From Pseudomonadota bacterium (lineage in GTDB: Bacteria > Pseudomonadota > Gammaproteobacteria > Steroidobacterales > Steroidobacteraceae), in the NCBI GenBank assembly GCA_026398785.1, contig JAPLSF010000015.1, forward strand, positions 1-35,525: 35,525 bases of DNA, read 5' to 3'. Under the pieces are notes generated by a model, which saw only the letters and a list, made by a program, of their open reading frames with translations, was not told the origin of the DNA and ran no database searches. The translations under genes were made by a program, and so were the position numbers. Within the stretch, counting starts at the first letter, position 1; every line of letters begins with the position of its first letter. This document shows, piece after piece, positions 10,197 to 26,546 of the stretch.

Positions 10197-10197
10197 C

Positions 10198-10217
10198 AAC
10201 TGTATATGCATACAGTA
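10198..10217 (+). promoter_or_regulatory. LexA (SOS) operator
   Basis: The sequence aactgtatatgcatacagta matches the E. coli LexA consensus at 17 of 20 positions and has an intact CTGT-N8-ACAG core (10200-10215). A GTGACA at 10193-10198 and a TAGTCT at 10216-10221 are spaced 17 bases apart and flank the box like -35 and -10 elements. Bound LexA would therefore block the promoter. The box ends ten bases before the next ATG. Confidence 0.85.
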
Positions 10218-10227
10218 GTCTCGGTGC

Positions 10228-12319: not shown

Positions 12320-13546
12320 ATGCACCGCATTTCAGGACTGACGGCGGCAGTGTTCGCGGCAGCGGCCGCGCTCGCCACGAGCGGGTGCCTGACGACCAGT
12401 TCCAGTTCGATGCCGAGCGGAATGCCGAGTGGCATGCCGAGCTCATCGCCTTCGTCACCGTCCTCGTCGGGCAGTTCGTCGCCTGCGAGCCCCAGTTCGG
12501 GTGGCAGCACAGGCCAGCAGTCGCCCTCGTCCTCGGGGAGCCAGGGGTCGTCTTCGCCCTCGTCGTCGGGGAGCTCCGGTCAGCCATCGTCTTCCGGCAG
12601 CTCCGGCCGCTCCGGCGGTTCCGGGCCTCCCCCACCGCCGCAGCCGCAAGGCTGGCCCACGCCTTCGTCCGCCGGTGGTTCACAGGGCAGCACGGCGTCA
12701 TCGTCCGGATCACCGACGGGTGGTGGTGCCGCTGGGGGGGCGCCCGGTTCGGCGGGCAGCGCAGGGCAGCCTGGAACGGCTGGCCAACCGGGATCCACGA
12801 GCGCGGGATCTGCAGGACAAGCAGGTTCGGCGGGCACCGCTGGCACGTCCGGCCAGCCCGGTCAGGCCGGTTCGGCGGGCACCGTCGGTAAAGGCGGCCA
12901 AGGCGGCCAAGGCGGCCAAGGAACGACGCCCGGCAGCGCGGGGGCCAATGCCAGTACGGGTGGATCGCAAACCGCGGGCGGCGCCAGCGCCGGTTCCGGC
13001 AGTGGTGGTGGCAGTGGTCCCGTGACCGCAGAAGACAAGCGTGCGGAGATCGATCGCCGCTTCGACGAAACGTTCGCCGTGTTCGACGCGCGCATGCGCA
13101 AGGAACAGGAGACGATCTCGCAGGAGCGCGCCGGCCGCGATGGCTCGGCGGGTGGCAGTGGAGCCGAGGGCGAGGGTGGTGATGGCACCGCAGGCGGCGG
13201 TGCTGCGAATGGTGATGGCGCGAACGGTGACGGCTCGGGCGGCCAGGGCGAGGAGGGTGCCGGCGAGGGCGCCAGCACCGGCGACGGCGCATCCGGCACG
13301 GGCAGTGAGGGCGGCCAGGGCGGCGACGTTGCTGCAGGCTCCGGCAGCCAGGGCGGTGGTGGCGGCGTCGGCGGCGGCGCTAAGGGCGGCGGTGGTCCCC
13401 GCGACGTGCCAGCCGACATCCCGGACGGTCGGGACGACGACATCGTTGCACGCCAGTTGCGCGAGGCCGCGATGAAGGAAACGGACCCCGAGCTGCGCGA
13501 GCGGCTCTGGGAGGAATACCGCAAGTACAAGCAGAGCACGCAGTGA
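12320..13546 (+). CDS. Lipoprotein with Ser-rich and collagen-like Gly-X-Y repeats
   Basis: The protein has 408 residues. The signal sequence ends in lipobox ATSGC (Cys23). The first part is Ser/Pro/Gly-rich, starting with three MPSG/MPSS repeats. It then passes into collagen-like GSAGQPGTAG-type triplets (about 125-215), then a charged helix EIDRRFDETFAVFDARM (about 240-260). A second Gly/Ala/Asp/Glu-rich low-complexity stretch follows. The C-terminus is an ordered-looking acidic and basic helical segment beginning DIPDGRDDDIVARQLREA and ending in WEEYRKYK. The low-complexity parts would make a long flexible tether from the outer membrane, with two short helical binding segments. The stop overlaps the next start by four bases (GTGA), indicating translational coupling. 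No known function. Confidence 0.78.
   Translation: MHRISGLTAAVFAAAAALATSGCLTTSSSSMPSGMPSGMPSSSPSSPSSSGSSSPASPSSGGSTGQQSPSSSGSQGSSSPSSSGSSGQPSSSGSSGRSGGSGPPPPPQPQGWPTPSSAGGSQGSTASSSGSPTGGGAAGGAPGSAGSAGQPGTAGQPGSTSAGSAGQAGSAGTAGTSGQPGQAGSAGTVGKGGQGGQGGQGTTPGSAGANASTGGSQTAGGASAGSGSGGGSGPVTAEDKRAEIDRRFDETFAVFDARMRKEQETISQERAGRDGSAGGSGAEGEGGDGTAGGGAANGDGANGDGSGGQGEEGAGEGASTGDGASGTGSEGGQGGDVAAGSGSQGGGGGVGGGAKGGGGPRDVPADIPDGRDDDIVARQLREAAMKETDPELRERLWEEYRKYKQSTQ
12410..12445 (+). repeat. Three 12-base tandem repeats (MPSG/MPSG/MPSS)
   Basis: Three near-identical units of the form ATGCCGAGYGGM run head to tail just after the lipobox of the collagen-like lipoprotein. They keep the frame, so copy-number change would lengthen or shorten the linker without breaking the gene. 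Confidence 0.7.
12893..12919 (+). repeat. Three exact 9-base tandem repeats (GGCGGCCAA)
   Basis: Three perfect copies encode three Gly-Gly-Gln units at the end of the collagen-like region. Being a multiple of three, slippage would change tether length but keep the frame. Confidence 0.8.
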
Positions 13547-14799
13547 CGACCTCGATCAATCCCGCTGTCTCCAATCGCGCGTGGCGAGCGTGCTGCGTCG
13601 TGCTGGCCCTCGCGCTGGGTGCTGCCGGCTGCGTCGTGCAGGACGAGCGCCCGATGGCGCCCGTTGTCGCGCAGAAAGCGACGGCCGAAATTCCGCAGGC
13701 GGAACTGCTCGACGTCGGCGTGCGCATGTTCGATCCGAACATCCCGCCGGACGTGGCCGAGCAGGAAAAGCGCGGCATTTACCCGGACGTCCGCAAGGCC
13801 GAGTCGCGCTACATGCCCGTCCTGCTGCGCGACACGCTGGAAAGCACCGGCCAGTGGGGTCAGGTGCGCGTGCTGCCCGCCGCAAGCGCGGGCAGCGACG
13901 TGAACATCGACGCCCGGATCCTCGAGTCCGACGGCAGCGTGCTGCAGCTCGCGGTCACCGTGACGGACGCCACTGGCCGCACGTGGCTGCGCAAGGACTA
14001 CGAAGGCCTGGCAGACACGCGCGCCTACAAGGACGTGCCGGTCAAGCCGCGCGACCCGTTCGACAACGTGTACGCGACGATCGCGAACGACTTGCTCGCC
14101 GCGCGCAACGAACTCACGCGTGAACAGCGCGTGCAGGTGCACCAGGTCGCCAACTTGCGGTTCGCGTCCGAACTCGCGCCGTACGCATTCCAGCCATACC
14201 TGGCGCACGACCCGAAGCGCGGCACGTACGCCATCGCGCGCCTGCCGGCAGAGGACGATCCGGTGGTGCAGCGCATGGACCGCGTGCACGAGCGTGATTA
14301 CGCGCTGATCGACACGCTCAACGAGCACTACACGAACTTCGGCGAGACCATCGACGACGCTTACGTCAACTGGCGCAAGTATTCGCACGAAGAGCTCGCG
14401 GCCGAAGCCGAGGCGAAACGCAAGGCGCTGGCGCGTGGACTGCTCGGCGCTGCGGCGATCATCGGCGGCGTCATGGCGGGACAGAACACGAACAGCAGCG
14501 CCGGCTCGGCGGCTGCGACCGCGGCCGTGATCGGCGGCATCTATGCGTTCAAGAGAGGCCTCGACATGCGCTCCGAAATCAAGATGCACGGCGAATCGCT
14601 GAAGCAGCTCGGCAGCTCGTTCCAGAACGAAGTGCAGCCGAGCGTCGTCGACATCGAGGGCCGCACGCTCGAGCTGAAGGGCTCGGCGGAGCAGCAGTAC
14701 GCGGAATGGCGGCGGCTCCTGCGCGAGCTGTACGAGAACGAGACGGGCCTGCCGGCGACGACGGCGGAAACCACCCAGCCGGCGGCCGGCAAGCGCTGA
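13543..14799 (+). CDS. Lipoprotein with a C-terminal glycine-zipper helix pair
   Basis: The protein has 418 residues. The start is a GTG overlapping the previous stop. Lipobox GAAGC gives Cys30. Residues 60-190 look like an alpha/beta fold of the kind found in periplasmic lipoproteins that assemble on other envelope proteins (VNIDARILESDGSVLQLAVTV); I cannot name the family. A long charged helix (about 235-300) leads to a Gly/Ala-rich hydrophobic pair, GLLGAAAIIGGVMAGQ and AAATAAVIGGIYAF, separated by a polar Asn/Ser loop. That is a glycine-zipper hairpin typical of sequences that insert or oligomerise in membranes. The C-terminus is helical. It is probably an outer-membrane partner of the operon's inner-membrane proteins. 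Confidence 0.8.
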   Translation: MTTSINPAVSNRAWRACCVVLALALGAAGCVVQDERPMAPVVAQKATAEIPQAELLDVGVRMFDPNIPPDVAEQEKRGIYPDVRKAESRYMPVLLRDTLESTGQWGQVRVLPAASAGSDVNIDARILESDGSVLQLAVTVTDATGRTWLRKDYEGLADTRAYKDVPVKPRDPFDNVYATIANDLLAARNELTREQRVQVHQVANLRFASELAPYAFQPYLAHDPKRGTYAIARLPAEDDPVVQRMDRVHERDYALIDTLNEHYTNFGETIDDAYVNWRKYSHEELAAEAEAKRKALARGLLGAAAIIGGVMAGQNTNSSAGSAAATAAVIGGIYAFKRGLDMRSEIKMHGESLKQLGSSFQNEVQPSVVDIEGRTLELKGSAEQQYAEWRRLLRELYENETGLPATTAETTQPAAGKR

Positions 14800-14809
14800 G
14801 TCCAGACCG

Positions 14810-17119
14810 ATGACGAAGATGACGGCGCTCGCAGGCGGGCAGGTCGTGGCTGCGCGATACGAACTCACACGGCCGCTTGCGGCCGGGCACGACGGCGCGA
14901 CATGGCTCGCGCGGGACACGCATGCCAACCGTGACGTCGTGCTGCGTTTCCGCGCGGGTGACGACGTGGCCGGTGAACGCATCCGCGCCGTCGTCGAGCA
15001 CGCGGCGCTGCTCGCACCTCTCGCCACGCACGGCGCGGGCGACGAATCCTTCGACGTCTTCGAGTACCTGCCCGGCGGCGAGAGCGGCCGCCTGCGTGGA
15101 CGTCCCTGGACGTTGATCGCGCGCCGGCTGCTGCCGGTGATCGATGCGCTGTCGCAACTCCATGCAGCGGGCTGGGTCCACGGCGATCTCAAGTCGGCCA
15201 ACGTGCTGCTCGACGGCGACGGCCTGCCGCGACTCGTGGACCTCGGTAGCGCGCGCAGGATCGGAACGACGCAACCGGCCGGCGCGTCGCCGTATTCGAC
15301 GAGTCCCGAGCGGCTCGACGGCGCCGCTGCGGCCGCGGCGGACGACATCTACGCCCTCGGCGTGCTGTGCTATGAACTCGTGTGCGGGCACCCACCGTTC
15401 TACCCCGACGTAACGCCCGCCCGCGTGCATGACGAAGTCCCGCCACCGGTTGCCGGCGGGCCAGATCCGCCCGAGGCCTTCCGTGCCCTGGTCGCGCGCT
15501 GTCTCGCCAAACGGCCCGCTGACCGACCGGCCTCAATGCATGTCATTCACGAAGAACTGCAGCAAATCCTCGCGACGGCATCGATTGCAACGGCGTCAGC
15601 CGCTGCACCGGGCGTTGCGGCGTGGCAGCCGCGTCCGCCCGCCGATGCCCTGCCCGTGCAGTCGCAATGGCGCCGCACCAAGGGCGACGCGCCCTCGGCA
15701 AAGTCGCTGCGCAGCGAAGGATTCCGCCGCGGCCTGCTGGTCGGCGCGATGGGGCTGGCGCTCGCGGCGGCCGGCTTCACCTTTTTCGTCTTGCCGGGTC
15801 TCGTCGGCTCGAAGACGCCGGCACCGAAAGTGCCCGCGGCTCCCGTGGCTGCGGCGCCGGCTGCGCAGCCGATCGCGGATTTCGAACGCCTCGCGGCATT
15901 GAAGCGCAAGGCGGAGGAGCGTCGCGGACCGCTGCCTGCGCGCCTGGAGAAACTCGAGCAAAGGGGCGTTGCCACCTGGGGTGGGGCGCCGTACGCGCAG
16001 GTACGCAACGACCTGTCTGCCGGCGATGCGGCGCTGACCGGGCGCGAATTCGAGTCGGCGCTTGCGCACTTCGACGCGATGGCGCGCGGGCTCGATACGC
16101 TCGAGCAGCGTTTGCCCGTGGTGGTTCGTGAACGGTTGGCCGCTGCGCAAGCCGCGTTCGATGCCGGTCGTGCCGCCGAGGCGCAGGAGAAATACGCGGC
16201 GGTGCTGCAGGTCGCGCCGGACGATGCCGTCGCACGCAGCGGCAGCGCCCGCTCGCGCGTGCTCGACGAAGTACTGCGCGAAACGGCGGTCGGTGCGCTT
16301 GCCGAGCAGGCAGGCGATGCCAAGGCCGCGATCGCGGCGTACCAGCGTGCGCTGAAACTCGATCCGGCGACGACCGTGGCGCGCGCAGGCATCGCGCGAC
16401 TCGGCGCACGCGAGACCAGCGACGCCTACGCCACGGCGATGGCGCAGGCCATGGCCGCGTTGGCGCGGCGCGACTACCCCGCGGCGCAGAACTCGTTCGA
16501 ACAGGCGGGACGCATCCGGCCCGGCACGCCGGAAGTCGCCGATGGCCTGCAGCAGATCCGCCGCGCCACCGAAACGAAGTCACTGACCTCCATCGTCGAG
16601 CGCGCCGCCGCGGCCGAGCGCGCGGAGCAATGGTCGCAAGCGCTTGCGCTGTATGGTGAGGCGCTCAAGGCCGAACCGGCGCTGCGGCCCGCGCAGGAAG
16701 GGGTGGAGCGTGCGGAGCCGCGCGCCATGATCGATGCCGAACTGCAGTCGTTCATCGACAAACCCGATCGGCTCTACAGCCCTGCAGGCCGGGACATCGC
16801 GCGCAACGTGCTCGAGCGCGCGGCCCGTGTAGCGGCGCCAGGCCCGCGACTGCAGGCCCAGCAGGCGCGCCTGACCGAGCAGTTGCGGCAGGCCGAGACG
16901 CCGGTCAAGGTGGCGCTGGCGTCCGACAATGCGACGGACGTGCAGATCTACCGGATTGGTAAGCTTGGGCTCTTTGAACACCGGGACCTCGAGCTGATGC
17001 CTGGCCGCTATACCGTTGTTGGCACACGCCAGGGCTATCGTGACGTGCGCAAGGAGCTGAACCTGCTGCCGGGTGCGCAGCCGTCCACGCTCGTGGTCCG
17101 CTGCGAGGAGCCCATTTGA
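14810..17119 (+). CDS. Membrane-spanning Hanks-type (pseudo)kinase with periplasmic TPR-like and PEGA-like regions
   Basis: The protein has 769 residues. Residues 15-275 are a Ser/Thr kinase fold: glycine loop AAGHDG at 24-29, catalytic loop HGDLKSANVLL from His124 with Asp126 and Asn131, metal-binding Asp144 in DLG, and SPE in place of APE. The strand-3 lysine is replaced by Arg46 (VVLRF), and the HRD arginine is Gly125. ATP binding and activity are therefore doubtful. One helix at about 308-330 crosses the inner membrane. The outside part has long TPR-like helical repeats (about 380-690) ending in a PEGA-like sandwich (about 700-765, LMPGRYTVVGTRQGYRDV). It overlaps the next gene by four bases. 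It probably senses or transmits envelope state; whether it phosphorylates anything is unknown. Confidence 0.85.
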   Translation: MTKMTALAGGQVVAARYELTRPLAAGHDGATWLARDTHANRDVVLRFRAGDDVAGERIRAVVEHAALLAPLATHGAGDESFDVFEYLPGGESGRLRGRPWTLIARRLLPVIDALSQLHAAGWVHGDLKSANVLLDGDGLPRLVDLGSARRIGTTQPAGASPYSTSPERLDGAAAAAADDIYALGVLCYELVCGHPPFYPDVTPARVHDEVPPPVAGGPDPPEAFRALVARCLAKRPADRPASMHVIHEELQQILATASIATASAAAPGVAAWQPRPPADALPVQSQWRRTKGDAPSAKSLRSEGFRRGLLVGAMGLALAAAGFTFFVLPGLVGSKTPAPKVPAAPVAAAPAAQPIADFERLAALKRKAEERRGPLPARLEKLEQRGVATWGGAPYAQVRNDLSAGDAALTGREFESALAHFDAMARGLDTLEQRLPVVVRERLAAAQAAFDAGRAAEAQEKYAAVLQVAPDDAVARSGSARSRVLDEVLRETAVGALAEQAGDAKAAIAAYQRALKLDPATTVARAGIARLGARETSDAYATAMAQAMAALARRDYPAAQNSFEQAGRIRPGTPEVADGLQQIRRATETKSLTSIVERAAAAERAEQWSQALALYGEALKAEPALRPAQEGVERAEPRAMIDAELQSFIDKPDRLYSPAGRDIARNVLERAARVAAPGPRLQAQQARLTEQLRQAETPVKVALASDNATDVQIYRIGKLGLFEHRDLELMPGRYTVVGTRQGYRDVRKELNLLPGAQPSTLVVRCEEPI

Positions 17120-19614
17120 GTTCCACCGAACTGATCCTGCGCGATCCACTCGGCGAGCGCGCGCTGTCGGCTGCGGATTTTCCCGTAAGTGTTGGCGGCC
17201 CCGGGCACACGATCGTGCTGCCGGGCGCGAGCGCGGGCACGCTCGCCTGGATTGCGCTGCACGACGGTCAGTTGTTCCTGCAGCCGGCGGAAGGATGCGC
17301 ACCCCCTCTGTGCAATGGCGTGCCCGTGTCGCGTCCGGCGTGGCTGCATGAAGACGATGTCATCGATGTGGCGCGTGGACGACTGCGCGTCGGCGCGCGC
17401 GATGGCCGGCGCATCCTCGACGTCGAGGATGGCAGCGGCGGCAACCTGACCGTTCCTCCTGAGGCGCCGCTCGTCGACGTCGTCAGTGGCGGCGGTGACG
17501 ACGGCGACGAACGCATCGACGCCGTTGCGTTCCGTCGACCTGCAGCGCAAGCCGCGTCCGCGCGACGCAGCGGGCCATGGCTGGTCGGCGGTCTGTTCGT
17601 TGCGGTGCTCGGGTGGGCGACGTGGTTTTTCGCGACCGGTCACGCCGTGAAGATCGATGTCGCTCCCGCCGACAGCGCGGTCCGGTTGCACGGCGGACTC
17701 GTCTTGCCCGTGGGCGGCAACCACTTCGCGCGTCCCGGCGAGTACACCGTCGAGATTCAGCGCAAGGGCTATGTGTCCCTGCGCGCGCCGATCAAGGTGA
17801 CGGACGCACCGAACCAGTCGTTCCAGTACCGGCTGGCGAAGCTCCCAGGCATCCTGCAGGTGCAGTCGCCGGTCGCCGCTCGCATCAGCGTCGCGGGCAA
17901 GGACGTCGGCTCGGCCCCCGGCGAAGTCCGGTTGCCGGCCGGCCGTCACGAGGTACTCGTCACGGCGCTGCGATACCTGCCGTTCAAGGCGACCGTTGAC
18001 ATCAAGGGCATGGAACAGCGGCAGTTGCTGACGGCGAAACTCATCGCCGCTTGGGCCCCGGTCACGGTACTCACGGAACCGACGGGCGCCACGGTGCTCG
18101 TGGATGGCAACGCGCAGGGCGCCACTCCGGCGCAGCTCGAACTCGACGCGGGCACGCATCGCATCGAACTGCGCCAGGCCGGATTCAAGCACTGGGTGAC
18201 CGACCTGCAGGTAGTCGCGAACCAGCCGCAGACGCTGGGCCCGGTGCGGCTCGGCCTGCCCGACGGCACGCTGATCGTGCGCACCGATCCGGTGGGTGCC
18301 AGCGTCAGTGTCGGTGGCGCTTTCCGTGGTCGTGCGCCGGTCACGCTCGATGTGCGGCCCGACGTTGCGCTGGCACTGGTGGCATCGCGCGAGGGCTACG
18401 AACCCGGGACCACGCAGTTGACGGTGGGAGCGGGCGAGCGACGCGAAGTGCAGTTGTCGCTGACGCCGATCTTCGGCGAAGTCACGGTGATGGCGGAGCC
18501 GGCATCTGCCGAGGTGTTCGCCAACGGCCGTTCAGTCGGAAAATCCGGGCAGGCCATCAAGTTGCCAGCCGCACGCACCGACATCGAAGTACGACTCGCG
18601 GGATTTCGTCCATATCGCACGGCCATCACGCCGCGCCCCGGCCTGCCGCAGGTGCTGAACGTGCGGCTCGAAGCGGGACAGGTCGCGGCCGTTGCGCCGC
18701 CGGCCACGGTTGCCGCAGCGGCGGGCGGTGCAGCCGCCGCAGGCGCAGCGAGTGGTGACGGCGCGACCGCCTCAGCGTCGAAAGCCCTCGCGCCGACGAT
18801 CCGCACGAAGTCCGGTGCAGAGTTGCGGCTGCTCGGGCCCGCGAGCTTCACGATGGGCAGTCCGCGCCGCGAATCCGGTCGCCGCGCCAATGAGTCGCAG
18901 CGCGCGGTGGAGCTGAGGCGGCGCTTCTACCTGGCGACGCGTGCAGTCACCAACGGTGAATTCAAGCAGTTCCGCGCCCAGCACCGTTCGGGTTTCGTCG
19001 GGCAGAACTCGCTCGAGCTCGAACGCCATCCCGTCGTCAACGTGACGTGGCAGGATGCGGCCGAGTACTGCAACTGGTTGAGCCTGCAGGACGGCCTGCC
19101 GCCCGCGTACCAGTCACAGGGCGGCAAGCTGGTGCTCGCGCAGCCCGCCACGACGGGCTACCGGCTGCCCACCGAAGCCGAGTGGGAATGGGCGGCACGC
19201 GCGAATCGCGATGGTTCGCTGCGGAAGTATCCATGGGGTGACGCGCTGCCGGTGCCGGCGGGCGCGGGCAACTTCGGCGACCGTCGGGCGCAGCCGCTGC
19301 TGCAGACGGTCCTCGCGGACCTCGACGATGGTTACCCGGCCACGGCGCCGACGGGCTCGTTCGCACCGAACCCGCTCGGGTTCTACGACCTGGGCGGCAA
19401 CGTCGCGGAATGGACGACGGACCTCTATGCGGTGCAACCTGCGAGCAGCACGGTGGTCGTCGATCCGCTGTCCGCCGCGCCAGGCAACATGCACGTCATC
19501 CGCGGCTCGAGCTGGCGTCACGCTACCGTGACGGAGCTGCGGGCTGCCTTCCGGGATTCAGACAACGGCCGGCGTGACGACGTCGGCTTCAGGATCGCAC
19601 GCTATGCCGAATAG
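17116..19614 (+). CDS. FHA-like / TM / PEGA-repeat / SUMF1 (FGE-sulfatase-like) fusion protein
   Basis: The protein has 832 residues from a TTG overlapping the kinase stop (TTGA). Residues 1-105 have an FHA-like beta-sandwich pattern with the motif less clear than in the 20745 gene. A helix at about 153-175 crosses the membrane. Residues 175-520 hold about five PEGA-type repeats (patterns such as EPTGATVLVDG, LELDAGTHRIELRQAGF). From 562 to the end is a SUMF1/FGE domain with FTMGSP, GYRLPTEAEWEWAAR, GGNVAEW and RGSSW. The catalytic Cys pair of true formylglycine-generating enzyme is missing; the only Cys in the block is in EYCNWL. It is therefore probably a binding domain, comparable to TagR of the type VI phosphorylation pathway. 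Topology puts FHA inside and SUMF1 outside. Confidence 0.87.
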   Translation: MSSTELILRDPLGERALSAADFPVSVGGPGHTIVLPGASAGTLAWIALHDGQLFLQPAEGCAPPLCNGVPVSRPAWLHEDDVIDVARGRLRVGARDGRRILDVEDGSGGNLTVPPEAPLVDVVSGGGDDGDERIDAVAFRRPAAQAASARRSGPWLVGGLFVAVLGWATWFFATGHAVKIDVAPADSAVRLHGGLVLPVGGNHFARPGEYTVEIQRKGYVSLRAPIKVTDAPNQSFQYRLAKLPGILQVQSPVAARISVAGKDVGSAPGEVRLPAGRHEVLVTALRYLPFKATVDIKGMEQRQLLTAKLIAAWAPVTVLTEPTGATVLVDGNAQGATPAQLELDAGTHRIELRQAGFKHWVTDLQVVANQPQTLGPVRLGLPDGTLIVRTDPVGASVSVGGAFRGRAPVTLDVRPDVALALVASREGYEPGTTQLTVGAGERREVQLSLTPIFGEVTVMAEPASAEVFANGRSVGKSGQAIKLPAARTDIEVRLAGFRPYRTAITPRPGLPQVLNVRLEAGQVAAVAPPATVAAAAGGAAAAGAASGDGATASASKALAPTIRTKSGAELRLLGPASFTMGSPRRESGRRANESQRAVELRRRFYLATRAVTNGEFKQFRAQHRSGFVGQNSLELERHPVVNVTWQDAAEYCNWLSLQDGLPPAYQSQGGKLVLAQPATTGYRLPTEAEWEWAARANRDGSLRKYPWGDALPVPAGAGNFGDRRAQPLLQTVLADLDDGYPATAPTGSFAPNPLGFYDLGGNVAEWTTDLYAVQPASSTVVVDPLSAAPGNMHVIRGSSWRHATVTELRAAFRDSDNGRRDDVGFRIARYAE

Positions 19615-19915
19615 AAGAGAACGACGCTCCACTCCCGTGTCGCTGGCGCCGCTGATCGGCCTGACGATCCTCGCGGCCGGCCTGGCGTTCGCGCAGCAGA
19701 ACCTGCCCGTGCCGGCGCCTGCGCCGACGGAGCCGGCGGCGACGGAACCCGCTGCCGGTGCGGAGGCCGCGGGTGCGGGCGAAGCTGCAGCGGGCAAGGC
19801 GGGCGACGAGGCGCCGGCCGCCAGGCCCGCCGCCGCAAAAGGTTCGCCGCAACGTTTCGAACCTACCGAAAAAGTCCGTCCCGACTTCGACGTCGCCTTT
19901 CCCGTCGACATCTGA
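19604..19915 (+). CDS. Short exported Ala/Pro/Glu-rich protein
   Basis: The protein has 103 residues and starts at the ATG at 19604, overlapping the previous stop by 11 bases. Basic MPNRRERRS is followed by a hydrophobic helix (about 15-32) that is either a signal peptide or an anchor. Next come about 50 residues of Ala/Pro/Glu/Gly and a final less repetitive tail RFEPTEKVRPDFDVAFPVDI. The tail looks like a conserved peptide motif on a flexible arm. No family recognised. Its place inside the overlapping gene run argues that it is translated and belongs to the complex, perhaps as a linker between the inner-membrane channel and the lipoproteins. Confidence 0.68.
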   Translation: MPNRRERRSTPVSLAPLIGLTILAAGLAFAQQNLPVPAPAPTEPAATEPAAGAEAAGAGEAAAGKAGDEAPAARPAAAKGSPQRFEPTEKVRPDFDVAFPVDI

Positions 19916-19935
19916 ACCACAGGCTCCAGCGCACC

Positions 19936-20733
19936 ATGAAGAAGTTCAAGACCAGTGAGTTCATGTTCGAGGTCTTCTCGCTGATCGTCATCGTGATCAT
20001 CGTGCAGGGCTTCTACGCCACCGTCGTGCGTCCGCAGGCCGCTGCGGTCGCCGCCGTGGACGCGGCGAACATGGCCAAGGATCCCAACTACGCACCGCCG
20101 CGCAACCTCTACATCATCATCAAGGACTACGAGCAGGAGGTCTGCTTCATGCTCGCGTTCTGGTCCGTGGCGATCATGGGGTACAAGGGCTTCTCGCTGC
20201 GGCGCGGCCAGCAACTGCTGGGCGCAGACCTGCTGCGGCTGCCGGAAGGCATGAAAATCCTGCCCGAGGACTCGCGCGACTACGCGCGGCAAGTCGAGGC
20301 CCTGCCCGACGACATGCGCGGCGAACTGCTGCCGCGCGCGCTGATGAGCGGACTGCACCGGTTCGGTGCCACGCGCAATATCCAGGACGTTTCGTCGGCG
20401 ATTCACGACACGTGCGAACTCGAGTTCGGCCGGCTCGACGCAGAACTCGCAATGGTGCGCTACGTCGCGTGGGCGATCCCCGCCATCGGCTTCATCGGCA
20501 CCGTGCGCGGCATCGGTGAAGCGTTGCAGCAGGCGCACAAGGCGGTCGAAGGTGACGTCTCCGGCGTGGTCGCGGGCCTCGGCCTCGCTTTCAACTCGAC
20601 GCTCGTCGCGTTGGGCCTGAGCATTCTCGTGATGTTCATGCTGCACCAGATCCAGCTGCGCCAGGAGCGCGCGGTGCTCGACGCCGAGGCGTTCCTCGAC
20701 GAACACGTCGTGCGCCAGATGATGGTGAGATAA
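19936..20733 (+). CDS. MotA/TolQ/ExbB-family proton channel protein
   Basis: The protein has 265 residues with four hydrophobic helices: about 13-30, 74-92, 172-195 and 208-236. The signature of the family lies in the third and fourth: AWAIPAIGFIGTVRGIGEAL and GLGLAFNSTLVALGLSILV, matching the GLLGTV and Thr-containing pore helices of ExbB, TolQ and MotA. Such proteins form pentamers around a dimer of ExbD, TolR or MotB and turn proton flow into motion. No canonical ExbD/TolR gene follows. Instead two VWA proteins downstream share an ExbD-like transmembrane segment, and I infer that they are its partners. It sits 20 bases after the small Ala/Pro-rich gene and 11 before the FHA gene. Confidence 0.9.
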   Translation: MKKFKTSEFMFEVFSLIVIVIIVQGFYATVVRPQAAAVAAVDAANMAKDPNYAPPRNLYIIIKDYEQEVCFMLAFWSVAIMGYKGFSLRRGQQLLGADLLRLPEGMKILPEDSRDYARQVEALPDDMRGELLPRALMSGLHRFGATRNIQDVSSAIHDTCELEFGRLDAELAMVRYVAWAIPAIGFIGTVRGIGEALQQAHKAVEGDVSGVVAGLGLAFNSTLVALGLSILVMFMLHQIQLRQERAVLDAEAFLDEHVVRQMMVR

Positions 20734-20744
20734 GCGGCCACGCC

Positions 20745-22157
20745 ATGAGTCTGCTCGCGGTCGAACTGAATGACGCCGGACTGCTGCTTGTGCGAACGGG
20801 CGACGACGGCGACCCTGTGCTTGTCGGCGAGGAAAGCCCAGGACTCGCGGTGCTGCACGAGGGTCGTGTCCACGTCGGTGGCGACGCCGTGCGACGCTAC
20901 CGTATCGCGCCGCTGCACGCACAGAACCGGTTCTGGCAGTCGCTCAGTCTGGAGCCGTTGCCGTGGTCGGCCCGCGGCATCGCGACGGCGGCCGACCTTG
21001 CGCACGCGCACCTGTCCGCCGTGCTCACGGCGCAAACTCGACACGGCGCGGAGGAGTTGTTGCTCGCCGTGCCCCCCGGCTATACGCGGGAGCAGCTCGG
21101 CCTGCTCGTCGGCGTCGCCAACGAGTGCGGCGTGTCGGTGCGTGGCCTCGTGGATGCCGGGCTTGCCGCGGTCGCCACGGTCGCGCCGGCACCCTGCCTG
21201 CTGCACCTGGACTTGCAACTGCATCAAGCGACGGCGACGCTGATCGAGGCGTCACGCGCCGAAGGCACGTTGCGCCGGACACGCTACGAGTTGCTGCCCG
21301 GCGCCGGCGAGCTTGCCTTGCGACAGTTGATGGCCGAGAGCATCGTAACGGCGTTCGTGCGCGAGACGCGGTTCGATCCGTTGCACCAGGCGGCGTCCGA
21401 GCAACGCCTGCACGACCTGCTGCCGTCCTGGCTGCAGGCGCTCGCCACGGTCGACGAGATCGCGGCCGAGATCGAAGTGGGCTCGACGACGCACCGCATT
21501 TCGCTCACGCGCGCACAGCTCGAAGCGGCCGTGGAACCGCTGAGTGACGCCATCCTGCGACTGGTGCAGGCCGCGCGTCCGCCGGGTACCGCCCTGCATC
21601 TCTGCTTCTCGCCCCGGGTGGCAGCGATACCCGGCCTGGTCGGCCGGCTCGCCGCGTTGCGGGACTGCGTCGTCGTCGAACTGGCGCAGGGCGCGCCGGC
21701 GATCGGAGCATTGCGCGCAGCCGCAGCCATCGTCCGTCCTGTGGACGCGATCGCGCTGGTGCACCGCTTGCCGCTGGCGGACGCGCGGGACTCGACTGCA
21801 CCCATTGAGCCTGCGTCATTCGCGGTGCCCGCCGCTGCCGTGCCGACGCACGTGCTGTTCCGCGGGCGGGCATGGCCGATCACCGCGGTGCCGCTGTCCC
21901 TGGGTTGGTCGGTGGGCGCCGCGCCGCGCGCGCTGACCCTGCCCGCCGGTATCGCCGGTATGTCGCGTTCCCACTGCACGCTCGAGCTGCGTGACGGCCA
22001 GGCCTGTGTCGTCGATCACAGCACCTATGGCACCTTCGTCAACGACGAACGCATCGGTGGCCGGCTCGCGCTGCAGGTGGGCGACGTGCTGCGACTCGGC
22101 GCGCCCGGTGTTGCGCTCGAACTGATCCGCGTGTTGTCGGACCATGGCGCGGCGTAG
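20745..22157 (+). CDS. Actin/Hsp70-fold-like protein with C-terminal FHA domain
   Basis: The protein has 470 residues with no signal peptide, so it is cytoplasmic. Residues 1-340 resemble the actin-like ATPase fold of Hsp70 and FtsA: an opening strand pair, LLAVPPGYTREQLGLLVGVANECG followed by LVDAGLAAVATV, and LLHLDLQLHQATATLI at the place of the second phosphate loop. That loop lacks the usual DxGGGT, so nucleotide hydrolysis is uncertain. Residues 380-460 are a clear FHA domain: GMSRSHC (Ser407 to His410) and STYGTFVNDERI. FHA domains bind phosphothreonine, which ties this protein to the kinase-like gene upstream. It overlaps the next gene by 14 bases. Confidence 0.82.
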   Translation: MSLLAVELNDAGLLLVRTGDDGDPVLVGEESPGLAVLHEGRVHVGGDAVRRYRIAPLHAQNRFWQSLSLEPLPWSARGIATAADLAHAHLSAVLTAQTRHGAEELLLAVPPGYTREQLGLLVGVANECGVSVRGLVDAGLAAVATVAPAPCLLHLDLQLHQATATLIEASRAEGTLRRTRYELLPGAGELALRQLMAESIVTAFVRETRFDPLHQAASEQRLHDLLPSWLQALATVDEIAAEIEVGSTTHRISLTRAQLEAAVEPLSDAILRLVQAARPPGTALHLCFSPRVAAIPGLVGRLAALRDCVVVELAQGAPAIGALRAAAAIVRPVDAIALVHRLPLADARDSTAPIEPASFAVPAAAVPTHVLFRGRAWPITAVPLSLGWSVGAAPRALTLPAGIAGMSRSHCTLELRDGQACVVDHSTYGTFVNDERIGGRLALQVGDVLRLGAPGVALELIRVLSDHGAA

Positions 22158-23244
22158 AAAAAAGTTCGACATCTTCAGCATGTCCTTCCTGGACACGATC
22201 TGCTGCGCGTTCGGCGCGATCGTGCTGCTGTACATGATCCTGAATGCACAGGGCAACAAGGCTTTCAAGGACCACGACTCAGAGCTGCGCGCCGAGGTGA
22301 ACAAGCTCGAGGAGGAAGTGCTGCAGGGCTTTGCCGACCTCGTGGTGCTGCGTAACAGCATGAAGACGACGACGACCGAGGCCGAGCGCGCGGAAGGCCT
22401 GTCCGACCGCGTGCTGCAGGAAACCGAGAAGACCAGGGAGCAGCTCGCCGACGCGGACAAGACGACGATCTCGCGCCGCGAGGCGATCGAGAAGCTCAAG
22501 GCCGACCTGCAGCAGATCGACGAGGAAAAGAAGCGGCTCGTTGCCGGCACGCCGGAGCCCGGCAAGCCGGGCAACCGGGTGAAGGGATTCGTCGGTACCG
22601 GCGATCGTCAGTACCTGAGCGGCCTCAAGCTTGGTGGCGAGCGCATCGTCATCCTCGTCGACGCCTCGGCGAGCATGCTGGACGAAACGGTCGTCAACGT
22701 GATCCGGCTGCGCAACATGTCGGAAACGCGCCGGCTGATGTCGGAGAAATGGCGGCGCACTGTGGCCACGGTCGACTGGCTCACGACGCAGATCCCGCCC
22801 AAGTCGAAATTCCAGGTGCTCGCGTTCAACGTGAAGGCATGGCCGGTGGTGCCCGCCAGCACCGGGCGCTGGCTCGACGGCAGCGATGCACAGGCATTGA
22901 CCGACGTCGTGGTGAACCTGCGCCGCACGGTGCCCACGGAGGGCACGAGCCTCGAGAATGCGTTCACGCTGATGAACTCGTTGAGCCCCGCGCCCGACAA
23001 CGTCTTCATCATCACCGACGGCCTGCCGACACAGGGCGCGACGCCGCCGGTCATCCGCAAGACGATCGATGGTGACGGGCGCCTCAAGCTGTTCGAGCGC
23101 GCGCTGGCCAAGTACCCCAACCGGGTTCCGGCCAACGTGATCCTGATGCCGATGGAAGGCGATCCGGCCGCGCCAGGCGCGTTCTGGACGCTGGCCCGTC
23201 GCACCAACGGCTCGTTCCTGATGCCGGCGAAGGACTGGCCATGA
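22144..23244 (+). CDS. VWA-domain protein 1 with ExbD-like Asp-bearing membrane anchor
   Basis: The protein has 366 residues. A short basic N-terminus (MARRRKKFDI) is followed by one helix, FSMSFLDTICCAFGAI and onward (about 11-33), with Asp17 at its start. This matches the topology and placing of the proton-carrying Asp of ExbD, TolR and MotB. Residues 45-140 are a charged coiled coil, and 165-350 are a VWA domain with MIDAS start DASAS at Asp173 and later FIITDGLP. The VWA would face the periplasm. Its anchor is almost identical to that of the next gene. I infer it is a moving partner of the ExbB-like channel. The stop overlaps the next ATG by four bases. Confidence 0.86.
   Translation: MARRRKKFDIFSMSFLDTICCAFGAIVLLYMILNAQGNKAFKDHDSELRAEVNKLEEEVLQGFADLVVLRNSMKTTTTEAERAEGLSDRVLQETEKTREQLADADKTTISRREAIEKLKADLQQIDEEKKRLVAGTPEPGKPGNRVKGFVGTGDRQYLSGLKLGGERIVILVDASASMLDETVVNVIRLRNMSETRRLMSEKWRRTVATVDWLTTQIPPKSKFQVLAFNVKAWPVVPASTGRWLDGSDAQALTDVVVNLRRTVPTEGTSLENAFTLMNSLSPAPDNVFIITDGLPTQGATPPVIRKTIDGDGRLKLFERALAKYPNRVPANVILMPMEGDPAAPGAFWTLARRTNGSFLMPAKDWP
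22174..22221 (+). repeat. 48-base direct repeat, copy 1 (VWA anchor)
   Basis: The 48 bases that encode the anchor core FSMSFLDTICCAFGAI match those at 23274-23321 with one difference (C/T). The rest of the two genes is clearly diverged, and the copies lie exactly 1100 bases apart. Confidence 0.9.
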
Positions 23245-24248
23245 GAAGCCGCCGGTCGCGCGATTTCGAAGTGTTCAGCATGTCCTTCCTGGACACGATC
23301 TGCTGTGCGTTCGGCGCGATCATCCTGCTGTTCATGCTGAGCAAGTTCGGCGAGCCTGCGGCGCTCGAGAAGTCGCGGCAGGACCTCGAGGGTCGCTTGC
23401 TGAAGCTGCAGGAAGAGCGCTACGACATCCGTGGCCAGACCGAGATCCTCAATCGCGATCTCACCGAACGCGAGCGACAGCTGTCGGAGGTGAAGCAGAA
23501 GCTCGCGCGGCTGCGTGGTGATCTCAGCGACGTGAAAGGCCAGTTCAAGGCAAGCGACCAGGATGCCGAGGTGGCGAACAAACTGCAGGGGCAGCTGGTC
23601 TCGGCGCAGCAGCAGCTCACCGAAGAGATGAAGAAGGTGCTCGGCGCGCAGTACCGGCGTGCGCCGCAGGATGCAGTCGCCGGCCTGCCCGTCGACAGTG
23701 AGTACATCATCTTCATCATCGACACCTCCGGTTCGATGGCCAACTACGCCTGGCCGCTGATGCTGCGCAAGATGCAGGAAGTGCTCGACGCCTACCCGCA
23801 GGTGAAAGGCTGGCAGGTCATGAGCGACGAGGGCACCTACATGTACCCGTCGTATCGCGGCCGCTGGCTGCCCGACACACCCTCGCAGCGCAAGCTCGTG
23901 GTCGACCGGCTGCGCGACTGGTTCCCGTTCAGCAATTCGAGCCCGGTCGAGGGCATCGTCGAAGCGATCCAGACCTATTACGGCTCGGGACGGCGCATCA
24001 GCTTGTACGTGCTCGGCGACGAGTTCACCGGATCCTCGGTGGACTCGGTCGTGCGGACGGTCGACCTGATCAATCGGGAAGACCGGACCGGGCAGCGCAG
24101 GGTGCGTATCCATGCGCTCGCGTTCCCGGTGCGTCCGGACGCACCGCAGTTCACCAGCGTGCGTTTTGCAACACTGATGCGGGTGCTCTGCGCGCGCAAC
24201 GGCGGCACGTTCGTCGGGCTGAACGAGCCTGCCAGTTACCGGCGCTGA
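23241..24248 (+). CDS. VWA-domain protein 2 with ExbD-like Asp-bearing membrane anchor
   Basis: The protein has 335 residues. The layout is that of the gene before it: basic MRSRRSRDFEV, helix with FSMSFLDTICCAFGAI (Asp18), a coiled coil at about 40-125 (SRQDLEGRLLKLQEER onward), then a VWA domain with a full MIDAS start DTSGS at Asp161. After the anchor the two proteins are strongly diverged, and the VWA surface here (LGDEFTGSSVDSVVRTV) differs. Two related but unlike partners for one channel suggest an asymmetric pair in the pore, as in other systems with one TolQ-like and two TolR-like proteins. It is eight bases before the last lipoprotein gene. Confidence 0.86.
   Translation: MRSRRSRDFEVFSMSFLDTICCAFGAIILLFMLSKFGEPAALEKSRQDLEGRLLKLQEERYDIRGQTEILNRDLTERERQLSEVKQKLARLRGDLSDVKGQFKASDQDAEVANKLQGQLVSAQQQLTEEMKKVLGAQYRRAPQDAVAGLPVDSEYIIFIIDTSGSMANYAWPLMLRKMQEVLDAYPQVKGWQVMSDEGTYMYPSYRGRWLPDTPSQRKLVVDRLRDWFPFSNSSPVEGIVEAIQTYYGSGRRISLYVLGDEFTGSSVDSVVRTVDLINREDRTGQRRVRIHALAFPVRPDAPQFTSVRFATLMRVLCARNGGTFVGLNEPASYRR
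23274..23321 (+). repeat. 48-base direct repeat, copy 2 (VWA anchor)
   Basis: Second copy of the block at 22174-22221; 47 of 48 bases agree. The single change is silent (TGC to TGT, Cys). Confidence 0.9.
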
Positions 24249-24256
24249 GGTGTATC

Positions 24257-24967
24257 TTGGCGCGCATGCCTGGTTTGTTCACATCGTGTCCCGGATCGCA
24301 CGCATTGCGCAGACTGGGAACGCCGGTCGCAGCGTTGATCATGACGCTGCTCGCTGCCTGCGCGCCCACCACGTTCGAAACCCAGTCCGACATCCCGCAG
24401 CCCCTGGTCGAGAAGATCCCGATAGTGATTGGCGTGCACATGCCGGCCGAGTTCACCGACAAGGTGTACCAGGAAAAGCGCGAGGGTGGCGGCGGCGAAT
24501 ACAGCATCGGCCTCGGCAAGGCGCAGTCTGCAGGGTTCATGCGGGTCCTGAACGCGATGTTCAATCGCGTGGTGCCCGTTGCTTCACCGCAGGACGCGGC
24601 GGCGATCGATCCGGAAATCCGCGGCGTGCTGGAGCCGGTGCTCGAGGACTACGCGTTCGTGACACCGGTCGACTCCGGCACGCCGTCGTATGCAGCGAGC
24701 CTGCGTTACACGATTCGACTCTACTCCCCGCAGGGCAAGCTGGCGGAGAGCTGGACATTTACTGGGTACGGGTCGCAGCCGGCGAGCCAGTTTCCGGGCA
24801 AGGGCGGCGAGGCGCTCGCCGTGGCCACGCGACTTGCGATGCGCGACGCCGGTGCGAAGCTCGCAGCCGAATTCCGCGAGCAGGCGATCGCACGTGGACT
24901 GCTGCCTTCGGTGCAAGCGGTTACGCCGCGAGAAGTGGAACTGCCGCCGCCTCCGCCGCGCTACTAG
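24257..24967 (+). CDS. Lipoprotein, last gene of the envelope operon
   Basis: The protein has 236 residues. A GAGG at 24247-24250 fits a TTG start at 24257 better than the ATG at 24266, though both give the same signal. The lipobox is LLAAC with Cys35 and Ala at +2, so outer-membrane sorting is likely. The mature part has an alpha/beta pattern with YTIRLYSPQGKLAESWTFTGYG near residues 155-176 and ends in a Pro-rich tail. I cannot name the family. The layout recalls small OM lipoproteins that cap periplasmic complexes. The stop is 50 bases from a convergent gene; no clear terminator was seen in between. Confidence 0.8.
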   Translation: MARMPGLFTSCPGSHALRRLGTPVAALIMTLLAACAPTTFETQSDIPQPLVEKIPIVIGVHMPAEFTDKVYQEKREGGGGEYSIGLGKAQSAGFMRVLNAMFNRVVPVASPQDAAAIDPEIRGVLEPVLEDYAFVTPVDSGTPSYAASLRYTIRLYSPQGKLAESWTFTGYGSQPASQFPGKGGEALAVATRLAMRDAGAKLAAEFREQAIARGLLPSVQAVTPREVELPPPPPRY

Positions 24968-25016: not shown

Positions 25017-26546
25017 CTATTCGCCCTGTTGCGGCGTGGCTGGAGCGGCGGGCTTCTCTGCCGGCGGTGGCAACAGCAGGATCCATGGCTGGCTGAACTG
25101 CACGCCCGGGGTCGCGACCGGTTCGCCGTTCTCAAGGCGTGGCCGATAGCGCGCGGTGCTTTGCAGCGACAAAGCCGTCTTTTCGCCGCGCCTCTTGTCG
25201 CCCGAGTCGTCGATCACTTGCGGCGCCTCCACGCGGCCCAGCGCGCTGACCGTGTACTCGACGACCACGTTGCGCACCTCGACCTCCGTGGGCGGGCGCT
25301 TCGGGTACCGGTTCCAGTCGTCGGGCCGGAACAGGTGCAGCAGGACGGGCTGGCCGAAGATCGCCTCGGTGTAGCTCTTGCCATTCAGCTTGTCGGTCAC
25401 GCGCGCGGCCGCGCGCCACGCCTGCTGGTAATGACTGCGCGCGCGATCCGGCTGATTGCGCACCTGATACCAGTCGCCAATCTGGGTCCGTACGTTCAGC
25501 ACCGCCACGGGTGATGGCGCCGCGGCCTGGTCGACGATCTGCGCCGCTCGCAGCAGCGACCGTTCGCCTTCGCCCGCCAGCGACGCGGGCGAAACCTGGA
25601 CCGGCACCAGCATCGCAGAGGGGTCATGAAACAGGGCCTCGCGTTGTTCGTCCGGGGATGCCAGCGGCTGCGCCGCCGGATCGAGCAGTTGCCGGCGATT
25701 GCAGGCGGCGATCGCAAGCAATGGACCCACGAGGAGCGGCGAGTTCGGGCCTTCGGCGGCTTCCACGATCTCGATCGCCTGCCGCAGCGTACGCCGCGAC
25801 TGGTCGTACGCTCCGATGCTCGTGTACCAGCGCCCGATCTCTTCCAGGGTCGGGGCGAGCTGCGGGCTGCTACCGCCATACTGGCGCGTCGCGATCCGCA
25901 GCAGGTATTTCTGCGCCTTCAACGCCTCCGGGTACCGACCGAGCTCGGTCAGGGAATCGATGTACTTCTCGACCAGCGGCACCTGTTTTGCCGTGAGCAG
26001 CCCTTCGTGCCGGCGCTTGAGGGCGATCGCCTGGTCGAAGCTCTGCACCGCGAGATCGTGCCGATTGCCGTCGTGATAGGCCGAAGCGAGGCCGGCGTAG
26101 GCTCGTGCCAGCCGATCGTGCAGTGGACGGCCCGAACTCTCGATCAGCTTGATCACGCGCAGGTACGTGGACTCGGCACCGACGTAGTCATCGGACAGGT
26201 TCTGGACCATGCCGAGGTTCATCAGCGCAACCTGCACCTCTTCGGCCGTTGGCGTGGTGGCCTGCGCCGCTGCGAGTTCGAGCACGCGCTCGGCATGCGG
26301 CACGGCCTCCGCGTACCGTCCGGCGTCGAACTCGGTGCGGAAGCTCGTGTAGGCGTCGGTCGCGCTGGCGGTCGCCGGGTTGCCTGCGGCGTTGCCCGGA
26401 GGCGTCGCAACCGGGTCCGCGGGAGCAGGGGGGGCGGACTGCGCGAACGCGGTGCCCGCCACGGCGAGGCCGGCCCACGCGGCCGCGACGAGCCATTGGC
26501 GCCGCGCGCTGGATCCGGACAACACGGTGTGGAGACGGTCACTCAC
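25017..26546 (-). CDS. Exported TPR protein with TonB C-terminal-like domain
   Basis: The protein has 509 residues. The N-terminus has a signal-like segment (ARRQWLVAAAWAGLAVAGTAFAQ), followed by a Pro/Ala-rich spacer containing a 7-base C run. Several TPR-type repeats follow from about 60 to 290 (DAYTSFRTEFDAGRYAEAVPHAE, ARAYAGLASAYHDGNRHDLAV). The last 90 residues read VEYTVSALGRVEAPQVIDDSG and RYRPRLENGEPV, the beta pattern of the TonB_C energy-transducer fold. There is no separate TonB anchor helix and box. It is a periplasmic scaffold or adaptor of unknown partner. It faces the ExbB/VWA operon tail to tail, which may or may not be meaningful. Confidence 0.82.
   Translation of the reverse strand: MSDRLHTVLSGSSARRQWLVAAAWAGLAVAGTAFAQSAPPAPADPVATPPGNAAGNPATASATDAYTSFRTEFDAGRYAEAVPHAERVLELAAAQATTPTAEEVQVALMNLGMVQNLSDDYVGAESTYLRVIKLIESSGRPLHDRLARAYAGLASAYHDGNRHDLAVQSFDQAIALKRRHEGLLTAKQVPLVEKYIDSLTELGRYPEALKAQKYLLRIATRQYGGSSPQLAPTLEEIGRWYTSIGAYDQSRRTLRQAIEIVEAAEGPNSPLLVGPLLAIAACNRRQLLDPAAQPLASPDEQREALFHDPSAMLVPVQVSPASLAGEGERSLLRAAQIVDQAAAPSPVAVLNVRTQIGDWYQVRNQPDRARSHYQQAWRAAARVTDKLNGKSYTEAIFGQPVLLHLFRPDDWNRYPKRPPTEVEVRNVVVEYTVSALGRVEAPQVIDDSGDKRRGEKTALSLQSTARYRPRLENGEPVATPGVQFSQPWILLLPPPAEKPAAPATPQQGE

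Follow-up and report, generated by a model that had tools for sequence, protein, structure and literature searches.

Paired VWA-domain proteins as candidate axle partners of an ExbB-like channel within a conserved envelope-gene module

We analyzed a window of 35,525 bp (positions 1 to 35,525 of contig JAPLSF010000015.1) from a draft genome of the Steroidobacteraceae (GenBank assembly GCA_026398785.1; 3.12 Mb, 409 contigs, 85% complete). On its plus strand a tightly packed series of genes, located at 12320-24967, has the order u1, u2, K, P, s, B, F, V1, V2, L (Table 1). B encodes a channel protein of the MotA/TolQ/ExbB family, and V1 and V2, which are both on the plus strand and overlap by 4 bases, encode paralogous proteins with von Willebrand factor A (VWA) domains. 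An initial annotation of this DNA had proposed that the two VWA proteins take the place of ExbD, TolR or MotB as partners of the channel, and it is this proposal that we pursue here.

Table 1. Coordinates and main characteristics of the genes and codons discussed in the text (AF2, AlphaFold2; FGE, formylglycine-generating enzyme; ORF, open reading frame).
Feature	Coordinates	Strand	Description
V1	22144..23244	+	366 aa; basic N-terminus, MotB-like membrane helix, helical stalk, VWA domain (ORF, AF2, Foldseek, Pfam)
V1 Asp17 codon	22192..22194	+	Candidate proton acceptor; D in 115/115 rows, 113 distinct
V2	23241..24248	+	335 aa; V1 paralogue with the same architecture (ORF, AF2, Foldseek, Pfam)
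V2 Asp18 codon	23292..23294	+	D in 116/116 aligned rows, 114 distinct
B	19936..20733	+	265 aa; MotA/TolQ/ExbB family (PF01618, E 3.6e-13); co-occurs with V1
B Thr189 codon	20500..20502	+	G-T-V motif, third helix; T in 103/103 rows
B Thr222 codon	20599..20601	+	N-S-T motif, fourth helix; T in 103/103 rows
P	17116..19614	+	N-terminal domain, putative membrane helix (by eye), PEGA repeats, C-terminal FGE fold (Pfam)
K	14810..17119	+	Optional Ser/Thr-kinase domain, putative membrane helix (by eye), TPR, conserved C-terminal domain
u2	13543..14799	+	Conserved lipoprotein-like protein; 41/43 loci, 44/60 relatives; lipobox by eye
u1	12320..13546	+	Low-complexity, lipoprotein-like; conserved C-terminal segment; 36/43 loci (alignment)
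s	19574..19915	+	Small; putative signal sequence, conserved C-terminus; 30/43 loci (alignment)
F	20745..22157	+	N-terminal domain and optional C-terminal FHA domain (E 2e-11); F in 40/43 loci
L	24257..24967	+	Lipoprotein-like; in part of the family only, 37/81 loci (alignment)

Homologous loci were picked by V1, and the best 80 of at least 559 relatives, which we refer to as the named loci, make 81 together with the window. The contigs of the named loci were scanned with patterns, one of which placed F-L-D next to a VWA pattern. The named loci span 3.4-19.6 kb, seven being shorter than 6 kb and many ending at a contig edge. A further 40 stretches came from genomes identified by searching with whole proteins or profiles; in two cases (L073/L202 and L092/L172) identical genes were fetched twice. 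According to the record titles of these best 80, most come from Gammaproteobacteria or unspecified proteobacteria, including Steroidobacter, Halieaceae and Woeseiaceae; further titles name Desulfobacterales and other deltaproteobacterial lineages, Acidobacteria, one member of the Myxococcales and one of the Kiritimatiellia. One locus titled 'MAG: Klebsiella pneumoniae' (L065) has a Halieaceae-like operon layout, and its title is probably wrong.

Both V1 and V2 have the architecture that had been read from the sequence at the outset, that is, a basic N-terminus and a single helix starting with S-F-L-D, followed by a stalk and a VWA domain, with ORFs, AF2 models and Foldseek in agreement. The models, computed from alignments of 81 V1 and 76 V2 sequences (A2 and A3, respectively), had predicted local distance difference test (pLDDT) scores of 83.6 for V1, with a helix at residues 13-132 and then the VWA fold, and 80.8 for V2, with helices at 9-105 and 110-133 and then the VWA fold. 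The long helix takes in the membrane segment in both proteins; the linker to the VWA domain is poorly modelled, and the last ~30 residues of the stalk are of low confidence (block pLDDT 60-63 in V1 and 49-53 in V2). The top Foldseek match of V1 in the PDB was the VWA domain 4fx5 (E 7.9e-8). For V2 the top match (E 3.7e-7) belonged to a PDB entry titled B19V capsid, ahead of chains from VWA proteins such as inter-alpha-inhibitor heavy chain 1 (E 4.4e-6) and capillary morphogenesis gene II, the latter represented by its VWA domain (E 4.7e-6). Pfam VWA_2 was detected at E<=0.01 in 81/81 V1 and 33/76 V2 sequences of A2 and A3, with the window's own proteins (22.7 and 14.9 bits) falling under the Pfam cut-off of 27 bits. 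A sequence-profile search of the PDB returned three matches for V1 and two for V2, all to the stalk (query residues 41-138), and Pfam at E<=0.1 gave no match to ExbD/TolR (PF02472), MotB_plug or OmpA for either protein. The D-x-S-x-S...D residues of the metal-ion-dependent adhesion site (MIDAS) were invariant in both alignments (V1 D173, S175, S177 and D292; V2 D161, S163, S165 and D260), and metal binding is predicted from this intact-looking motif in each protein. The initial designation as a metal-dependent adhesion domain agrees with the motif; beyond the motif, the term adhesion found no support.

The S-F-L-D motif occupies residues 14-17 of V1 and 15-18 of V2, confirming that the acidic residues are Asp17 and Asp18. 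Conservation of this Asp among homologues had been put forward as a check, and it turned out to be invariant, being present in 115/115 V1 and 116/116 V2 rows. These rows comprise the 81 loci for each protein plus 34 V1 and 35 V2 members from the additional stretches, of which 32 and 33, respectively, are distinct from those of the named loci. Because F-L-D was itself part of a contig-scan pattern, the counts within the named loci (L034-L113) are partly circular, and for that reason the additional members were sought via whole-protein and profile searches. All 34 V1 and 35 V2 sequences recovered by these motif-free searches, the models of which do include the anchor, carry the Asp. It is retained despite drift of the surrounding motif to A-L-L-D, in V2 of L173 and L174, and to S-A-L-D, in L183-L185, where the profile match itself covered anchor and stalk. 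One of the regular expressions used for cutting out segments also required the Asp, and no protein failed it. The anchor helix is the most conserved region of each protein, with mean column conservation for V1 and V2 of 0.74 and 0.83, followed by the VWA domain (0.60 and 0.64) and the stalk (0.47 and 0.52). The lone membrane helices of P and K had values of 0.33 and 0.36, a rough contrast, since these helices lie within poorly aligned stretches.

The channel protein B scored 49.8 bits against PF01618, above the curated cut-off of 22.9. Thr189 and Thr222 were invariant across all 103 aligned rows, 102 of them distinct (102/102), and align with both Thr residues of the source genome's two other channel proteins; column conservation in the last two helices was 0.91 and 0.81. 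Remote relatives of B were also seen adjoining other single-helix proteins (L214:7783-9946 and L215:1-1306). At the first of these, one helix has A-L-A-D and the neighbour has I-V-E, and the neighbouring helix at the second is without an acidic residue; another type of axle is possible there.

The absence of an ordinary ExbD after the channel gene, which the initial annotation had pointed out, holds for the window and extends well beyond it. An ExbD profile derived from control loci gave 41 matches and detected 30/30 of those loci; used at E<=10 on the ORFs of the window and the named loci, it found none in 81/81, which speaks directly to the earlier question of whether an ExbD gene accompanies this channel in other genomes. 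Among the 40 additional stretches, two (L181 and L182) contained ExbD, which adjoined a separate, ordinary ExbB at a distance of over 7 kb from V2. In the source genome itself there were four ExbD matches, all on contigs other than that of the window. The genome's two other channel genes each adjoin an ExbD, and the fourth match is a fragment, 43 columns long, at the start of a contig. A search of the same genome with the MotB plug profile PF13677 gave no match.

We examined the joint occurrence of the genes in the same 60 related genomes for V1, B (E<=1e-15), P (E<=1e-60) and u2 (E<=1e-5), finding them in 44, 43, 44 and 44 genomes, respectively. V1 and B were both present in 43 and both absent from 16, with one genome having V1 only and none having B only; the exception (G005) is 80% complete and has V1 on a 3.4-kb contig. 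The presence of P matched that of V1 in 60/60 relatives, and u2 was discordant in two, occurring alone in one genome (G002, 65% complete) and missing from another (G033, 87% complete). In a class-wide draw of 274 genomes (V1 profile E<=1e-3, B E<=1e-15), V1 matched 24 genomes and B 27, with 23 in common. In the V1-matching genome without B (G099) the V1 match covers the stalk alone, and V1 is present in all 20 genomes whose B match exceeds 240 bits. Fisher p values for the association of V1 and B, which ignore kinship, were 1e-13 among the 60 relatives and 2e-28 in the class draw. At the level of loci, window included, V2 was present in 81/81 and B in 69/81, and nine of the 12 without B have at most 1.4 kb of sequence upstream of V1. 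In the remaining three (L040, L073 and L100) there is room beside V1/V2 yet no B, and each of these genomes has B elsewhere. B is distant from V1/V2 but retained in G012, G018, G270, G033 and the genome of L100, and V2 lies on a separate contig in another (G047, as L217). That the genes are separated yet retained together argues for a functional connection over mere operon inheritance.

The initial annotation had likened the residues preceding the Asp to the P-F-I-D of ExbD. This likeness was dropped in favour of MotB, as the motif does not align with ExbD at that position and the register fits the Y-A-D of MotB instead. Using hhalign, we compared Asp-centred segments with MotB (n=7) and ExbD (n=16), and six sets of membrane or signal segments taken from these loci served as controls. 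The MotB and ExbD sets are those that passed the segment-cutting regular expressions (7/19 and 16/32 loci). Scores against MotB were 16.0 for V1 and 16.2 for V2 (E ~0.006), and the Asp aligned with that of Y-A-D; controls scored 7.2-10.6 with V1 or V2 as the query, and the known relation between MotB and ExbD 19.9-23.2. With MotB as the query, V2 scored 17.6, V1 14.3 and the controls 8.1-15.3. The alignment of V1 with ExbD spans just the second half of the helix, and V2 scored 9.6 against ExbD. Overall, the comparison weakly suggests that the anchors are closer to MotB than to the P-F-I-D of ExbD.

Taken together, the invariant Asp residues, the two ring Thr residues, the loci devoid of ExbD and the co-occurrence of V1 with B support, at the level of sequence, the proposal that the VWA proteins replace ExbD, TolR or MotB as partners of the channel. 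Neither of the outcomes that the initial annotation had named as refuting it, an unconserved Asp or an ExbD gene always beside this channel, was observed. It is probable, in our judgement, that B is the pentameric ring of a 5:2 motor driven by protons, and that V1 and V2 form its axle. V1 and V2 would each provide one helix, the Asp of which would accept protons while facing Thr189 and Thr222 of B, and proton flow would rotate the V1/V2 pair against the B ring. On the helical stalks both VWA heads would reach far into the periplasm and there act on other products of the operon, P above all, followed by K and the lipoproteins. A composition of one V1 and one V2 per B ring would be the most economical, with kinase and FHA domains as optional regulators.

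Several observations weigh against this reading. By sequence search B reaches the solved TolQ only distantly (E 0.13). The MotB-anchor match has a probability of just 4-13%, based on seven MotB sequences, and V1 scores nearly as high against ExbD (15.3) as against MotB, although out of register. With MotB as the query, the control set of K segments (15.3, over 4 columns) scored above V1 and below V2, so the MotB comparison is suggestive only. In the class draw, four genomes (G155, G219, G271 and G327) have a remote relative of B (58-100 bits) and no V1 or V2 match, and at L040 a V1/V2 pair stands without an adjoining channel gene, the same genome having a full operon at L169. Loci of the S-A-L-D type have just one VWA protein beside B (L183 and L185). 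Finally, the agreement in stalk length considered below is confounded by paralogy and kinship, and the ends of the stalks are poorly modelled.

The composition of the axle is the point at which an alternative retains most ground, namely that there are two separate homodimeric motors, each with five B and either two V1 or two V2, and no mixed axle. We consider this unlikely. It gains from the stoichiometry being a prediction here, and from the relatives with a lone VWA protein beside B, which indicate that a V1:V2 pair is not essential across the superfamily. Against it, V2 is present wherever V1 is (44/44 relatives, on the same contig in 42), and the copy numbers of B and V1 match in the 43 relatives that have both, with one of each in most and two of each in G044 and G057, the second copies in those two genomes extending to V2 and P. 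Moreover, the distance from the Asp to the modelled end of the stalk (residue 132 in V1, 133 in V2) is 115 residues in both proteins and is an equal 115 in 82/113 loci, and both proteins have changed in a divergent clade. If fully helical at 0.15 nm per residue, the stalk would be ~17 nm long, of which ~14 nm would lie past the membrane. V1 and V2 being paralogues, and their carriers related, the equal lengths fit helices lying side by side in one ring without proving such an arrangement. We did not retain the argument for a heterodimer from co-varying lengths: correlations between V1 and V2 for stalk length (r 0.83, 113 loci) and for the distance from the anchor Asp to the first MIDAS Asp (r 0.77, 111/113 loci, with L091 and L176 dropped) appear to be driven by that one divergent clade (L173, L174 and L177-L180), and the two pairs of identical genes noted above are counted among the loci.

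The S-A-L-D loci themselves encode a divergent, single VWA-like protein (L183:8516-9511, L184:7631-8323 and L185:9574-10443), with a B relative in L183 and L185. Their neighbours, judged by eye except where a profile matched, include PP2C, FHA, trypsin-like protease or kinase genes. These loci may encode a motor related to that of V1/V2 but with a homodimeric axle.

Improbable, in our assessment, is that V1 and V2 act outside the ring as transducers comparable to TonB or TolA, with an ordinary ExbD encoded elsewhere as the axle. The main text of PMC12204202 describes another vWA family of that transducer kind, from the PVC group, which has an SHLS motif and adjoins tolR-like genes, and ExbD genes were present in 30/30 of the relatives that we searched. 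However, ExbD was also present in genomes lacking V1 and B (G009, G013 and G014 among them), so its presence does not track B. The loci and the source genome, in which the ExbDs adjoin other channels or, for the fourth, form a fragment, likewise offer no such axle, and the invariance of the anchor Asp, in register with that of MotB, does not favour a transducer role. Least probable of all is a regulated inner-membrane scaffold without proton-driven motion, its Asp helix being a packing or assembly element, for which it may be said that proton flux and movement are here predictions and that no deletion phenotypes are reported for the first vWA family in the main text of PMC12204202, but which sits poorly with an Asp invariant in all aligned homologues and two channel Thr residues invariant in 103/103.

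A motor with V1 and V2 as its axle has a precedent, and what the initial annotation regarded as a new kind of output for this motor family had already been predicted in a publication (PMC12204202; Mol Biol Evol 2025), which reduces the novelty of the V1/V2 motor. As described in its main text, a vWA family occurring mostly as heterologous pairs is closely tied to tolQ homologues without tolR or exbD, and has a conserved Asp in a transpore helix that AlphaFold3 models put among the ring threonines, on the basis of Idiomarina homologues. The V1/V2 loci correspond to these TPH-vWA pairs in having two membrane-tethered vWA proteins, an adjoining tolQ-like gene, no tolR or exbD, an Asp in the helix and Thr in the ring; the correspondence is one of described features. 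Among the literature matches listed, this was the only one with the idea of a vWA axle, and the words VWA and Willebrand were absent from the main texts of PMC12505986 and PMC9389320.

Among better known systems, the flagellar stator MotAB shares with V1/V2 and B a ring protein of the PF01618 family and an anchor Asp in weak register with the Y-A-D of MotB. It differs in that V1 and V2 are two distinct axle proteins with a VWA head rather than an OmpA-like peptidoglycan-binding domain, and no match to the MotB plug was found in the source genome. ExbBD and TolQR share the PF01618 channel with its two Thr positions, whereas the V1/V2 loci have no ExbD/TolR gene or domain and lack the P-F-I-D context. 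The AglRQS system of Myxococcus gliding likewise combines one ring protein with two distinct Asp-bearing axle proteins; in contrast, AglQ and AglS are described as MotB homologues with TolR-like domains, and no VWA head is mentioned in its main text (PMC9389320). Relative to this background, we contribute an Asp count with its bias stated, channel Thr counts, a weak likeness to MotB, strict co-occurrence that includes separated genes, and P as a constant partner. They support independently, from sequence and with controls and counts, a type of motor for which the only published account that we came across was a structural prediction.

The new part is the wider module of envelope genes that travels with V1, V2 and B, P foremost, to which the TPR protein K and the lipoprotein-like proteins also belong. 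In the 43 loci, window included, that extend 8.5 kb or more upstream of V1, K and P were each present in 42, u2 in 41, B and F in 40, u1 in 36 and s in 30. The only one without all seven was L040, a lone second V1/V2 pair (8995-11117) in Peristeroidobacter soli that has no channel or other module genes beside it. Domains were scanned in 46 K proteins (45 complete, of at least 300 aa, plus the window), 38 P proteins (37/52 complete, plus the window) and 39 F proteins (38/65 complete, plus the window).

PEGA repeats and an FGE-fold domain were found in 38/38 P homologues. P was rejected as a formylglycine-generating enzyme, as the catalytic cysteine pair is missing: no Cys occurs in the aligned block of any of the 38, P having also been aligned to 6s07, and the block of PorK that aligns with P is similarly without Cys. 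The nearest PDB chains to the FGE fold of P were two entered as 'Lipoprotein, putative' (E 4.8e-18 and 5.1e-18) and PorK/GldK (6.8e-18), with a small margin over the best true FGE chain (E 1.9e-17). P is a constant partner in the module with what appears to be a PorK-like, non-catalytic FGE fold. A proton motor that acts on a PorK/GldK-type protein in type IX secretion would be analogous to B, V1 and V2 acting on P. P differs from the proteins of GldKLMN/PorKLMN in having PEGA repeats and in scoring 107.3 bits against the NCBIfam GldK equivalog TIGR03525, for which the cut-off is 350. GldL and GldM were not among the NCBIfam matches of the ten window proteins scanned, the genome not having been searched for them. 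PEGA, kinase and sulfatase have no occurrence in the main text of PMC12204202, in which the spelling FGE was not searched, and a co-conserved PEGA/FGE/TPR module was not found among the literature matches listed, most subscription papers and preprints being outside that search.

A kinase domain was detected in 27/46 and TPR_2 in 38/46 of the K homologues, in which the C-terminal part with the TPR is the conserved portion, and an FHA domain in 28/39 of the F homologues. Since kinase and FHA come and go among homologues, we regard them as optional regulators, and phosphorylation was discarded as a core feature. An impression that the N-terminal domain of F is actin/Hsp70-like received no Pfam support and was also set aside.

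Extending the preferred reading of V1 and V2 as the axle, one can envisage a mixed-axle motor of Gram-negative bacteria outside the Bacteroidota, having five B, one V1 and one V2, with P, by virtue of its PorK/GldK-like, non-enzymatic FGE fold on PEGA, as the load. As an all-or-none machine spanning the envelope, it would parallel the motor-plus-ring core of type IX secretion, with the VWA metal sites as a clutch and the optional kinase and FHA domains as control. As a whole this picture is speculative and rather doubtful. Should the mixed axle be real, it would be a natural 5:2 motor in which the two sides of the axle can be mutated separately; the partner genes, chiefly P, are prime candidates for functional study.

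Minor features of the remaining genes were also noted. Lipobox-like starts were noticed by eye in u1, u2 and L, and u1 is very rich in Gly and Ser, its best conserved stretch being a short C-terminal segment. The kinase motifs of the window's K are H-G-D-L-K, D-L-G and V-V-L-R, while most kinase-bearing relatives have H-R-D, D-F-G and often V-A-L-K, and from these motifs the kinase of the window may be weak or dead. Lastly, a TPR protein encoded on the minus strand (25017-26546) has a C-terminal TonB_C match of 24.2 bits, against a Pfam cut-off of 24.6, and is found near V1/V2 in 28/81 loci; it could be a further periplasmic partner.

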